A stretch of 33,733 nt of DNA from Alphaproteobacteria bacterium (GTDB taxonomy: Bacteria > Pseudomonadota > Alphaproteobacteria > CAAHEQ01 > UBA3637), in NCBI GenBank assembly GCA_017412085.1, contig JAFPYS010000001.1, forward strand, positions 1 through 33,733, given 5' to 3'. Within the stretch, counting starts at the first letter, position 1. The number at the start of each line of letters is the position of its first letter. Of this stretch, positions 2,674 through 33,733 are shown in pieces. A model generated the notes under the pieces. That model had not been told where the DNA came from and searched no databases. It was given only the letters and a program-made list of their open reading frames with translations. Made by a program: the position numbers and the translations under genes.

Positions 2674-3815
2674 GTTGACTCCTTAGAACGAGAAACTTTA
2701 ATGATTAACTCCACCAACTTTTTTGAGGCATCCCCTTTGTCGTAGACACCTCTATCCTTTAAAAATTTTTCAACAGCGCGTAAATACTTTTTCGAATCAA
2801 ACTGAGTTATATTATCAATCAATTTTTTATTATTATATGCAATCGGGAAAGGAGTTCCCTCCAAAGGAATCTTAAATCCTCTTTCTGCCTCATATCGTTT
2901 TTTATCCAGAGCAAAAATAAAACCGGGACGTTTGGTAATCAAAAAATCAAATATTGAAGACGAATAATCCGTGATTAACAAATCTGATACGCACAATAAC
3001 TCCTGCATATCCGGATACTTTGATACATCAAACAACCACTCATAATTTGGTATGATATTTTTTTCCTTAATCATGTTTGGGTGTAATCTTGAAAAAATAA
3101 TCCATTCCCCTCGAAACTTTTTTTGCAAAGCTTTCTTCAGCCCGGCATAGTCTATCTGATAAACGCTCTGGTCATGGCTCTTGCGAAAAGTTGGCGCATA
3201 CATCGCTATCTTAACGCCCGGGGACAATTTATATTTAGAAACTATCTTTTTCTTAATATCTTTTGGATTTTTGAACAGAACATCATTTCGCGGATTGCCC
3301 CCTCTAAAATACTTTCCCGCATACCAGAAACTCCCTTTAAATAAGGCATTTTCTGCCCATTTTGAACCAGACGACAAATAGTCAATATTTTTGGAATCAT
3401 TTTTTGCGCTCTTAACATATCCTTTTGACAAATTCAGAGCATCCGCTTCAATTTTCTTAAAGCTAAAGGAACCATGCCATGTTTGAATATATATTTGTTG
3501 TTTTTTCTTTTTAAAACCTTTTTTCCAGAAAGAAAGTCTCATATTAGAAATCAGCACGTGGCATGTTGACATATAATATAATCCCAACAATGAATTCAAT
3601 TTGATCAATTTTATATCTTTTGGAAATTCCGAAAAATCTATATTATTATTGGAATCATACAACCACACCAATTCAAACTCTTTATGTTTCAACATCTCCA
3701 AAGCAATATATTTCGGATTATCCCCAAATCCTTGACCACTATAACTAACAAAGCAAACTCTATTTTGCCTAATTGGAAAAAGATTAAATATGAAGCTTGA
3801 CAATCTACGAGACAT
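2664..3815 (-). CDS. CDP-glycerol glycerophosphotransferase family protein
   Basis: The 383-residue product resembles the TagB/TagF-type polyol-phosphate transferase family. Visible marks are an early FNLFPIRQNRVCFVSYSG segment, TWHGS near residue 115, a middle APTFRKS motif, and LLITDYSSSIFDFL followed by KRPGFIF. Family members transfer glycerol phosphate or related groups from CDP-activated donors; in Gram-negative bacteria they act on capsule or O-antigen repeats. The acceptor here is unknown. I chose the ATG at 3815 because AAGGAGG lies a few bases upstream. A longer reading to 3848 has no such site. The chosen start overlaps the end of the XRE regulator gene by 11 bases. With the heptose genes downstream, it probably decorates or builds a phosphate-containing surface glycan. 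Confidence 0.82.
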   Translation of the reverse strand: MSRRLSSFIFNLFPIRQNRVCFVSYSGQGFGDNPKYIALEMLKHKEFELVWLYDSNNNIDFSEFPKDIKLIKLNSLLGLYYMSTCHVLISNMRLSFWKKGFKKKKQQIYIQTWHGSFSFKKIEADALNLSKGYVKSAKNDSKNIDYLSSGSKWAENALFKGSFWYAGKYFRGGNPRNDVLFKNPKDIKKKIVSKYKLSPGVKIAMYAPTFRKSHDQSVYQIDYAGLKKALQKKFRGEWIIFSRLHPNMIKEKNIIPNYEWLFDVSKYPDMQELLCVSDLLITDYSSSIFDFLITKRPGFIFALDKKRYEAERGFKIPLEGTPFPIAYNNKKLIDNITQFDSKKYLRAVEKFLKDRGVYDKGDASKKLVELIIKVSRSKESTCN

Positions 3816-4071
3816 ACACCCTCCTTCTATTTGATTTTGGAGAGGCAAAATTTTCTGGAATCATAACTAATTGTTCTGGTTTTACACCCAGTGCATCAGA
3901 AATTTTTTTTAACGTTTTTGTGGTTGTCCCCGCCTTACCACATTCAATCGTCGCAATCGTGATTAATTGCAAACCTATCTGGGCGGCAAATTCTTTTTGA
4001 GAAAGTCCGGACAACTTGCGATAATACGCGATGTTTCTGCCTACAATACGCAAAAAATCATTTTCTGTCAT
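3805..4071 (-). CDS. XRE-family helix-turn-helix regulator
   Basis: A small 88-residue Cro/C1-type DNA-binding protein. The HTH covers roughly residues 10-65: GRNIAYYRKLSGLSQKEFA supplies the first two helices, and the later IATIECGKAGTTTKTLKKIS and ALGVKPEQL segments match the rest of the fold. The C-terminus is a short basic tail (SNRRRVYVS), so no effector domain is visible. It is the first gene of the glycan operon and its promoter carries two 17-base direct repeats, which suggests autoregulation (inference). The Shine-Dalgarno is weak (GGA six bases before ATG). The stop overlaps the next gene's start. Confidence 0.85.
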   Translation of the reverse strand: MTENDFLRIVGRNIAYYRKLSGLSQKEFAAQIGLQLITIATIECGKAGTTTKTLKKISDALGVKPEQLVMIPENFASPKSNRRRVYVS

Positions 4072-4089
4072 TTATTTTCCATTAAACTC

Positions 4090-4126
4090 GCATACAATGA
4101 TACACATTTGCATACAATGATACACA
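4090..4126 (-). repeat. Two direct repeats over the -10 and start region, candidate operator
   Basis: GCATACAATGATACACA occurs at 4090-4106 and again at 4110-4126, a period of 20 bases or about two helical turns. The copy at 4110-4126 contains the -10 box and the other lies in the leader of the XRE gene. This is a likely binding site for the XRE protein itself (inference). Confidence 0.7.
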
Positions 4127-4145
4127 AACGTACCTTTAATGTCAA
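4117..4145 (-). promoter_or_regulatory. Promoter of the surface-glycan operon
   Basis: On the minus strand, -35 TTGACA (4145-4140), a 17-base spacer TTAAAGGTACGTTTGTG, and -10 TATCAT (4122-4117). This places the start of transcription near 4110. The spacer is nearly identical to that of the pilin promoter at 33606-33634. Confidence 0.75.
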
Positions 4146-4267
4146 TATATTTTTTGTACCTTTTTAAGTCTAGATATTAGGGGCTAAAATCAAAGAAAAA
4201 TGTATTAAATTCAATAACTAACTTATATTTTAAAATTATTTCTAAAAATTTTTAAATTTCACCGACA

Positions 4268-4281
4268 TAAAGGTACCTTTA
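4268..4281. promoter_or_regulatory. 14-bp perfect palindrome TAAAGGTACCTTTA
   Basis: A perfect palindrome whose half-site AAAGGTAC also occurs (minus strand) in the glycan-operon promoter spacer near 4131-4138 and upstream of that promoter near 4156-4163. It lies in the 254-base gap between the XRE gene and the flavodiiron gene. That gap otherwise holds only the operon promoter and a weak AT-rich hairpin (about 4281-4306) just downstream of the flavodiiron gene. Confidence 0.5.
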
Positions 4282-4325
4282 AAATATATGGTTTTTCCCA
4301 TATTTTAGGGCTTTACTTGTCCAAA

Positions 4326-20202: not shown

Positions 20203-21456
20203 ATGACACAGTTCGTCCAAAAGGACTCTATCTTAATTTCGAAAAAGAATTCCGAATCGGGTCGTACCATGCTGGAAGTATTGGCGGTAATTGCTTTGAT
20301 TGCTTTATTGTCCATTGGAACGATTGCGATGTATCAACGCATTATGAATTCACAAAAAGCTGAGTCACTTTATAACGATTTTCGCCTGCGCGCATTGTTG
20401 ACGGCTGAGCAAAAAGATCGGGGCAACAATATTTTTACCACTGCGTTCAAAGAGAAATCAACCTATAATCTGCCGATGACCGTTCTGCAAGATCTTCCTT
20501 CTTCTGGATATTTTTTAATTCAAGCACACAACGTCAAACCCACTGTATGCAATATGTTGCTTAAAAAGGGGTGGTTAAGTGATTCCGTGAATCAATCTCT
20601 GATACCTGCCCGTTTTTATATTGATAACACACCTTATGAACCAAACGCTCTGCCCAGCACATGTCCCAACAGAGATATTACCTTCAAAGTTGCCTATCGT
20701 TCCAAAAAGGCCGATCAAGAGGATCGGTTAGGTAACATATGCACCAGTGACAGCGATTGCGATACAGGATGTAGCACATGTTACAAAGAAAGCGGAGAGA
20801 CTCGGGGTGTTTGTACAGGGCGCTGCTGTGCTTTAAATGAGTCTTTATCTTCTGGTTGCACCTGTCCTGCACACAGAGATACAACAGGCGGCCAATGTGG
20901 AGGTTGTGTGGCGGAACAAGTCTGGGTTCCATGGACTCAACCAGTCCTTGCTGGGTACGGAACGATGGGGGGAAATAGCACACTTGCAACTCGGGCTTCA
21001 TCCGAACAAGACACCAACAGAAGAGCATGGAAAGCCTTTGATGGATTAAATAGAAACGAAGGAACTGATTGTTGGCATAGTAGTAATTTCTCACCCTCTT
21101 GGCTTGCGTGGTACACCAAAAACCCCATCAAAATCAGCTCCATTACTATCACAAACAGATATTGTACGACTGGAGATCAAAATCTAAGCTATACTGTGAA
21201 AGATTTTACGATACAATATTCAGATAATGGCTCTAATTGGCAAGATGTACTAAGCGCCACAAATCAAAAAGGGCACTTAAAATCTTCAACATTTAATATA
21301 ATATATGATGCAGCTCATCAATACTGGAGATTATATATCACCTCCAATTACCATTCCACAAATAAATATGTATCTATCGGTGAATTGACCATTGAGGCCG
21401 TCGAACAACAAACGGTGGAATACACCTTCAATTCCTCTACACGTTTGTGTGAATGA
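20203..21456 (+). CDS. Prepilin-like protein with Cys-rich linker and C-terminal discoidin (F5/8 type C) domain
   Basis: A 417-residue secreted pilin-like adhesin candidate. A 20-residue leader ends in SESG, followed by RTMLEVLAVIALIALLSIGT. This is a type IV prepilin N-terminus with the conserved Glu at +5 but Arg instead of Phe or Met at +1. Residues about 40-175 are a pilin-like body. Residues 180-235 are a Cys-rich segment (CTSDSDCDTGCSTC, RCC, CTC, CGGC). Residues about 255-405 resemble a discoidin fold: AWKAFDGLNRNEGTDCWHS, SITITNRY, VKDFTIQYSDNGSNW and YWRLYITSNYHS. Discoidin domains often bind carbohydrates. Assembly into a pilus tip or pseudopilus is inferred; no assembly genes are in the window. 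AAGGAG lies upstream, and the gene stands alone behind its own promoter. Confidence 0.83.
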   Translation: MTQFVQKDSILISKKNSESGRTMLEVLAVIALIALLSIGTIAMYQRIMNSQKAESLYNDFRLRALLTAEQKDRGNNIFTTAFKEKSTYNLPMTVLQDLPSSGYFLIQAHNVKPTVCNMLLKKGWLSDSVNQSLIPARFYIDNTPYEPNALPSTCPNRDITFKVAYRSKKADQEDRLGNICTSDSDCDTGCSTCYKESGETRGVCTGRCCALNESLSSGCTCPAHRDTTGGQCGGCVAEQVWVPWTQPVLAGYGTMGGNSTLATRASSEQDTNRRAWKAFDGLNRNEGTDCWHSSNFSPSWLAWYTKNPIKISSITITNRYCTTGDQNLSYTVKDFTIQYSDNGSNWQDVLSATNQKGHLKSSTFNIIYDAAHQYWRLYITSNYHSTNKYVSIGELTIEAVEQQTVEYTFNSSTRLCE

Positions 21457-32476: not shown

Positions 32477-33427
32477 TTAAGGAATACAGCGCCAATAGCC
32501 ATTTTGTGCAAAGAATTCATGATCCACACCCTTCTCACAAAAAACGGTCTCATTGTCTACGTTAAAATCCCAATAAGCTTCTGTTGAGCCAATTGGGCCA
32601 CAAGCACAGCCGGAAATTCTGTCAGTATAAGGATCGTACTTGGGCACAGCAACACTTCCTCCCTCGCAACAACAACCGGATGTGACATATCCCCCTGCAT
32701 TATATATTTCGGTGCTATTACAACAATCATCATAAGAAGACAGATTATAGTAGTGATAAGGTGTTTGATTTGGATGGCAACAAAGAGCAATCTGACCATC
32801 GGTCTCATCCTGAGCATACCCATCACAACATTCATAGGCATCAGCGGTGGCATCTGGATCTGAAGTATAAGCTCTATATGGCACCTCTCCCTCTGGACAA
32901 ACTTTGCCAGCCCTTGTACACCTGTTTGTTGCTGCATCACATGTTGAACCATTTGTACAGCATGTCTCGCCACATTTTACTCCCGCGCAGGATTCCCCTT
33001 CATCACTTGAACCTGTGTTTTCGCTTAAATCATTGTTAAATTGGAAGGTCATATCGCTTGTACCAGAACAAGATTCTGGTGTAATCACGGGAATCTTCCA
33101 TTCCATCGTGATAATTTTACTGCACACACTCTCTGGTATATTTTGGATTGTCAATTTAAACTTTCCTTCCGTATTTGTATCTACATTATTAGGAATTGTA
33201 TAAGCTCCATCATTTTCGTTAAATCCAGAAAGCGAGGCCGTTTGTCCTAGCTGACGTTGACCAGATACTACAACCGCCCGATTCATAAGCCGCCCAATTG
33301 TTTCATTAGCTCTATGTTTGTTCATCGCCATTGTATAGCCAGCAATACCACCAACGGACAAAACGCCGATAATGGCTAATACACCTAACATTTCGACCAT
33401 TGAACGGCCGGATTCTGTATTTCTCAT
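32477..33427 (-). CDS. Cys-rich prepilin-like protein (left copy of divergent pair)
   Basis: A 316-residue pilin-like protein. A 7-residue leader MRNTESG is followed by RSMVEMLGVLAIIGVLSVGG: type IV prepilin N-helix, Glu at +5, Arg at +1. A pilin-type body follows. From residue about 150 the sequence is packed with cysteines (about 22 in all, often as pairs: KCGETCC, ECC, LCC, DDCC, GCCC), so it must be disulfide-bonded outside the cell. I recognise no carbohydrate-binding fold. ATG 33427 is chosen because AAAGGA lies upstream; a longer frame from 33460 lies in the leader. The first 41 bases and the 5' leader are identical to the right copy. The -35 box is not shared. Confidence 0.85.
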   Translation of the reverse strand: MRNTESGRSMVEMLGVLAIIGVLSVGGIAGYTMAMNKHRANETIGRLMNRAVVVSGQRQLGQTASLSGFNENDGAYTIPNNVDTNTEGKFKLTIQNIPESVCSKIITMEWKIPVITPESCSGTSDMTFQFNNDLSENTGSSDEGESCAGVKCGETCCTNGSTCDAATNRCTRAGKVCPEGEVPYRAYTSDPDATADAYECCDGYAQDETDGQIALCCHPNQTPYHYYNLSSYDDCCNSTEIYNAGGYVTSGCCCEGGSVAVPKYDPYTDRISGCACGPIGSTEAYWDFNVDNETVFCEKGVDHEFFAQNGYWRCIP

Positions 33428-33495
33428 TTTATGTTCCTTTCGTTTGTTAACAAATCTCAATTTACTTTCCCAACATACAAAAACGTTCCTTTAAA
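33387..33495 (-). repeat. Left arm of 109-bp perfect inverted repeat
   Basis: Matches the reverse complement of 33611-33719 over 109 bases. It covers the -10 box, leader, ribosome binding site and first codons of the left pilin gene. Beyond it, toward 33373, only synonymous third-base changes are seen as far as the window allows. Confidence 0.95.
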
Positions 33496-33500
33496 ATGCG
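33472..33500 (-). promoter_or_regulatory. Left pilin promoter, -35 position not conserved
   Basis: Minus strand: same spacer motif and -10 TATGTT (33477-33472) as the right copy, but CGCATT (33500-33495) at the -35 position. Expected to be weak or activator-dependent. Confidence 0.5.
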
Positions 33501-33610
33501 TGGCAAAAAACGGGAACATAAAATTAACAGAAAATGTAAATTATATAATATAATCAGTTGATTAATCAAAAAAACATAAAATTTTCAAAAATCAATAAAA
33601 ACCTATTGAC
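33496..33610. other. 115-bp AT-rich spacer between inverted-repeat arms
   Basis: Non-coding, strongly AT-rich, with the 12-bp palindrome TTGATTAATCAA at 33558-33569. It supplies the -35 box of the right pilin promoter (33606-33611, last base in the arm) but no recognisable -35 for the left one. Confidence 0.75.
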
Positions 33611-33634
33611 TTTAAAGGAACGTTTTTGTATGTT
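33606..33634 (+). promoter_or_regulatory. Promoter of the right pilin gene
   Basis: -35 TTGACT (33606-33611), 17-base spacer TTAAAGGAACGTTTTTG, -10 TATGTT (33629-33634). It matches the glycan-operon promoter at 23 of the first 26 bases. Confidence 0.72.
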
Positions 33635-33719
33635 GGGAAAGTAAATTGAGATTTGTTAACAAACGAAAGGAACATAAAATGAGAAATACAGAATCCGGCC
33701 GTTCAATGGTCGAAATGTT
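33611..33719 (+). repeat. Right arm of 109-bp perfect inverted repeat
   Basis: Reverse complement of 33387-33495. It includes the -10 box, leader and first 41 bases of the right pilin gene. Confidence 0.95.
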
Positions 33720-33733
33720 GGGCGTGTTAGCCA
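33679..33733 (+). CDS. Prepilin-like protein, right copy, cut by window end
   Basis: Only 18 codons are visible: MRNTESG then RSMVEMLGVLA, identical in protein to the left copy, with the last codons differing only by synonymous changes (TTG/TTA, GGC/GGT, GTG/GTA). AAAGGA precedes the ATG. A full prepilin gene is expected beyond the window. Its variable C-terminal part cannot be seen. Confidence 0.85.
   Translation, partial: MRNTESGRSMVEMLGVLA

Follow-up and report, generated by a model that had tools for sequence, protein, structure and literature searches.

Gut Bacteroidales offer the best-known cases of multi-locus invertible promoters controlled by one master invertase. In Campylobacter fetus, at the sapA locus, a promoter lying between opposed genes whose 5′ ends are identical inverts and selects the surface protein that is expressed, in a RecA-dependent reaction using the long conserved 5′ ends. 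In Moraxella bovis, pilin coding sequence lies within the segment that is inverted, and the recombinase involved is Piv. The M. bovis pilin inversion goes back to Marrs et al. (1988, as listed in PMC11868660). The Mpi inverted repeat of Bacteroides fragilis reads ARACGTTCGTN and that of B. intestinalis GTTCGTTTAA, with invertible promoters of 183-186 bp (PMC8375218). According to a survey, Proteobacteria have invertible-promoter loci of this kind far less often, and in smaller numbers per genome (PMC8748976).

We report here on a locus that resembles the Mpi-controlled promoters of the B. fragilis and B. intestinalis capsule loci. As in Bacteroides, dispersed non-coding elements bounded by nearly the same short inverted repeats contain a promoter-like sequence and adjoin genes for surface structures, in a genome that encodes an Mpi-family serine invertase. 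The differences are that the host belongs to the Alphaproteobacteria and not to the Bacteroidales, that prepilin genes take the place of capsule operons, that the element measures 137 bp instead of 183-186 bp, and that the copy studied here possibly serves two genes, its 109-bp arms running into coding sequence. As for M. bovis, DNA inversion is proposed to decide which of two type IV-like pilins, alike in their N-terminus, is used, but the segment here is non-coding and the candidate enzyme is a serine invertase of the Mpi type. With sapA the locus would share an inverting promoter that separates opposed genes having the same 5′ end; unlike sapA, it has short conserved Mpi-type sites.

The window, that is, the whole stretch of DNA analysed, is a complete contig (C1, 33,733 bp) of an assembly totalling 966,948 bp in 21 contigs. 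Near its end, positions 33387-33495 and 33611-33719 are perfect reverse complements of 109 bp around an AT-rich spacer of 115 bp (33496-33610), which reproduces the exact arm coordinates of an earlier, sequence-only reading. The inverted match continues to 123 bp at 98% identity, and is far stronger than the next-best inverted repeat with arms within 1 kb found by scanning the window (29 nt at 76%). Each arm holds an Mpi-type site with one half of a promoter, a leader, a ribosome-binding site and the first 41 nt of a prepilin gene, the left arm for the left gene and the right arm for the right one. The left prepilin (32477-33427, minus strand, ATG at 33427) is a Cys-rich protein of 316 aa with the signal ESG/RSMVEMLGVLAIIGVLS. 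The right gene (plus strand, ATG at 33679) is cut after 55 nt by the end of C1, at 33733. By inspection, the class III signal (ESG/RSMVEMLGVLAIIGVLSVGGIAGY), with E5 and a hydrophobic stretch, is that of type IV prepilins; the Pfam N_methyl match is weak (E 0.06 for the left protein) and stays below the cut-off. A second prepilin-like protein of 417 aa with a class III signal is encoded in the window at 20203-21456 (plus strand); its C-terminal part is an F5/8 type C (galactose-binding-like) domain (Pfam E 6e-12).

The right prepilin probably continues on contig C11, judging from the sequence. This contig starts with ACGCAT, the 109-bp arm and GGGCGTGTTAGCCA, and continues with a prepilin gene of 134 aa and then a gene for an ATPase of the T2SSE family. 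C1 is linked to C11 by 14 pilin bases, which are found in the C3 pilin too. The sequence-only reading spoke of two Cys-rich pilins, a description that suits the left protein but not this probable continuation of the right one, which is short and has two cysteines. In comparison with the C11 gene, the arm showed 0 differences over 109 bp and the following 66 bp showed 10, all synonymous, the first non-synonymous changes appearing at codon 36. This bears out the earlier remark that differences past the arms are synonymous, and points to an N-terminal stretch held by selection. The same boundary indicates that the leader and the first 13 codons were recently homogenised, as had also been proposed. 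Identity over 109 bp outside the sites is unnecessary for inversion, and the best explanation for the long arms is that a whole cassette was recently copied or converted between two pilin loci.

The proposed invertible unit extends over 137 bp, from the GTTC of the left site to the GAAC of the right site (33485-33621), a length that recurs in other copies. The left site, TTTAAAGGAACGTTTTTGTATG (33474-33495, minus strand), has AA as central dinucleotide, and the right site (33611-33632, plus strand) is the same sequence inverted. Read inward, the arm carries AAACGTTCCTTTAA, in which AAACGTTCCT and GTTCCTTTAA match the B. fragilis ARACGTTCGT and the B. intestinalis repeat, respectively, at 9 of 10 positions each (PMC8375218), so that the pair forms an inverted repeat of the Mpi type. 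A composite of the two published repeats, which we overlapped ourselves and scored over 14 positions, is matched at 13/14 only at the two arms in the window; among random 24-mers, a match of this quality has a probability of 1e-5. The sole other match of at least 12/14 (12/14) is a site in the promoter of an XRE-type regulator gene. This promoter carries (TTGAC)ATTAAAGGTACGTTTGTGTATC at 4119-4140 on the minus strand, and a further site, TTTAAAGGTACCTTTATGTCGG, lies 143 bp upstream of it (4262-4283, minus strand). These two copies in the regulator region (3805-4283, minus strand) are direct and not inverted, with TA as central dinucleotide and a self-complementary centre. In the paired sites, the central dinucleotide agrees inside each pair and varies between families (AA, GA).

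The spacer has two distinct edges, an L-end reading ACGCAT outward on the left and an R-end with TTGAC on the right. At the R-end, the promoter-like sequence TTGACT-N17-TATGTT (33606-33634, plus strand), recognised by its match to the consensus, has its -35 box in the spacer and its -10 box in the arm, and points towards the right pilin. The match is modest (9/12), and the same arrangement recurs at the pilins of C3 and C13. Inside the spacer, another consensus match, TTGATT-N18-TATAAT (33540-33569, minus strand), points left, and its TATAAT core is kept in all spacers. Given this second site of opposite direction, and promoters predicted from their consensus, the ON and OFF assignment is uncertain; a conserved TATAAT-type site pointing the other way and a 9/12 promoter fall short of establishing exclusive expression.

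Copies of the element occur at several dispersed loci of this genome (C1, C3, C13, C10/C19 and C9/C16), with spacer homologues on C3, C13, C16 and C19. The exact pattern TTWAAGGNACNTTTNTGT is present 13 times, versus 0 for the reversed-pattern control. Nearly all spacer homologues terminate at the core site TTTAAAGGNACNTTTNTGT, the left site on C13 having diverged from it, and the distance from GTTC to GAAC (or their equivalents) is 137 bp on C1, C13 and C19, and 136 bp on C3. Spacers end with TTGAC on the R side and with ACGCAT or ATGCAT on the L side. The R-end is turned towards the pilin at C3 and C13, and on C19 towards the pilin of its probable partner C10, while the left pilin of the window is faced by an L-end. 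Eight of the 13 exact sites lie at most 260 bp from a contig end, as would be expected if alternative junctions coexisted, repeats and low coverage contributing as well. The start of C2 (G000, 17-693) carries the site variant ATTTAAGGAACATTTATGTAAT with TTGTAA-N17-TAATAT before an outer-membrane beta-barrel gene at the contig end, possibly another switched surface gene. The 700-bp ends looked at on C4, C5 and C7 (1.6 kb each) read as N.

Evidence on orientation came from two sources. On C11, the bases 3′ of the arm are those of the window's right gene, and the six bases before the arm are those of the window's left spacer edge: the arm of the right pilin is joined to the opposite end of the spacer, as spacer inversion would produce. 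These 6 bp at a contig tip are the sole evidence of this kind at the window's own locus. The second source is the uncultured Alphaproteobacteria bacterium BRZ_DV__bin2 (G013), of another genus in the same family, which was matched, together with one Pseudidiomarina, when named genomes were scanned for the site pattern. It has nine inverted GTTCSTTT...AAASGAAC pairs, all 137 bp long (0 for the reversed-pattern control), and a prepilin start adjoins all nine, two of these prepilins being cut by contig ends. Both orientations are present: the pilin stands at the L-end in 7 cases and at the R-end in 2, the TTGCA end pointing away from the pilin in 7 and towards it in 2. The elements C8b and C39 are identical (137/137) and lie in opposite orientations relative to the pilin, next to 67 bp of one pilin start that they share and that is unique among the nine; their far flanks differ, and contig C39 stops there. 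C8b and C39 represent either a single pilin found in two arrangements or a duplicate of very recent origin; both readings imply that the element was inverted with respect to the pilin.

The genome encodes three recombinases of the serine type and three of the tyrosine type. One serine recombinase (C10:21359-21958), with a resolvase N-terminal domain, scores 273.5 bits against the Mpi family model NF009949, above its cut-off of 272, and DNA invertases are its nearest solved structures (E 1.6e-11). The second (C2:27559-28230) reaches 233.7 bits, under the same cut-off, and the third (C2:26110-26670) is more distant. The invertase family was found in 32 of 43 related genomes versus 0 of 14 controls. 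The exact site pattern was absent from the other ten genomes of the genus, though several of them carry the invertase family; since family and exact site do not go together within the genus, other members may use other site variants. When spacer and arms were searched for in 57 relatives, the spacer was not found and the prepilin 5′ end alone matched.

We consider it quite probable that the 115-bp spacer and its two sites form an invertible promoter element of the Mpi type, by which prepilin expression would be phase-varied. The sequence evidence that the element is invertible is strong across two genera, its activity and control being predicted. One of the candidate Mpi-family invertases of the genome would pair the two sites, whose central dinucleotides match, and flip the spacer; the -35 box of the R-end would thereby join the -10 box in the arm of either pilin, and the orientation of the spacer would turn one pilin on and the other down. 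The earlier proposal that recombination switches pilin expression is thus retained in the form of an inversion choosing the expressed pilin. Its other part, an exchange of C-terminal parts through the homologous 5′ coding ends, is not upheld. The conserved unit is non-coding, 137 bp long and delimited by Mpi-type sites, and the pilin coding sequence lies outside the enclosed segment. The element recurs at other loci and in another genus, where the arm sequence outside the sites is short and differs from locus to locus. The promoter, and not coding sequence, is what should switch. Genome-reduced, uncultured Alphaproteobacteria appear to vary their prepilins with such sites and enzyme, with nine elements in one genome. 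This would provide pilus variation with a concrete basis in a lineage that has many paralogous prepilins, and would extend the Mpi site code across phyla.

How the two pilins of the window came to stand head to head is a separate matter. There may have been two cassettes, each of non-pilin flank, element and pilin, one of them derived from the other by copying or conversion; a later crossover between one site of each would have placed the pilins head to head and joined two terminators. C9 starts with the pnp terminator, a site and two bases of the R-end, C16 with the groEL terminator, a site and the L-end, and the two share an exact arm of 45 bp. C1 and C16 carry different spacer alleles, in keeping with this history of cassette copying and crossover. 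The head-to-head junction may also be an artefact of assembly or of a mixture, a serious possibility that we lean slightly against. Two cassettes, one with the pnp side, element, right pilin and T2SSE ATPase gene, the other with the groEL side, element and left pilin, would have been joined through their near-identical arms, the true partner flank of each pilin being non-pilin. A pilin stands indeed on one side only at every G013 element and at the copies on C3 and C13, and in genome G010 the T2SSE gene is immediately preceded by pnp. The starts of C9 and C16 have matching terminator-side arms, and contig ends cluster at sites. Against this, the shared exact stretches do not exceed 123 bp, compared to overlaps of k=141 elsewhere in the assembly, so that repeats alone should not have forced the join, and the C1 spacer is unlike that of C16. 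The groEL and M23/DsbA synteny is too rearranged in relatives to fix the ancestral neighbour of the left pilin. The earlier worry about an artefact at the contig edge is justified as far as the pilin-to-pilin junction goes, but it does not touch the 137-bp element, and the invertible-element reading is intact even if the junction is false.

A broader idea, which we hold to be rather doubtful, is that the elements make up a recombination network spanning the genome, in which the invertase joins sites of different pilin loci as well as those within one element. If so, large chromosomal inversions would exchange pilins and upstream flanks, coupling the choice of pilin to genome architecture, and one such exchange would have yielded, as its two products, the head-to-head pilins of the window and the pair of pnp/groEL terminators.

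Apart from inversion, the paired sites could be operators in a fixed bidirectional regulatory region, bound for example by the XRE protein encoded at 3805-4071; the DNA between them, 137 bp or 13 helical turns, might be looped. The motif does lie between a -35 and a -10 box, the palindrome AAAGGTACCTTT is part of some copies, the XRE gene is itself preceded by two copies, and other genomes carry single copies in promoters. We nevertheless judge this improbable, as it leaves unexplained the near-identical G013 elements in both orientations, including the pair with the same pilin start, the C11/C1 discrepancy, the agreement of central dinucleotides within pairs and the match to the published Mpi repeats. 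A static inverted duplication, in which the pilin 5′ region was recently copied in inverted form or converted through RecA and no switching takes place, would account for the sharp boundary between arm and downstream differences; it is very improbable, and in its simple form was rejected, since the 137-bp element recurs with conserved sites and with spacer ends both ways, also in a second genus. A MITE-like mobile element with a promoter, suggested by a short dispersed element with inverted ends, is hardly credible and was rejected as well, the arm ends being locus-specific and not uniform (19, about 24, 45 and 109 bp) with no shared end found, and the search of the 57 relatives having yielded no spacer.

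Outside the family, the Pseudidiomarina match, in the gammaproteobacterium P. terrestris (1893-1916 of the stretch taken from that genome), is a single exact copy of the R-end promoter plus site, and may be due to chance. In genome G065, two outward-facing promoter motifs of the TTGCATTAAAGGYACGTTTAT type (309 and 1138) lie about 830 bp apart, one of them before a prepilin gene, and this pair possibly bounds a larger invertible segment.
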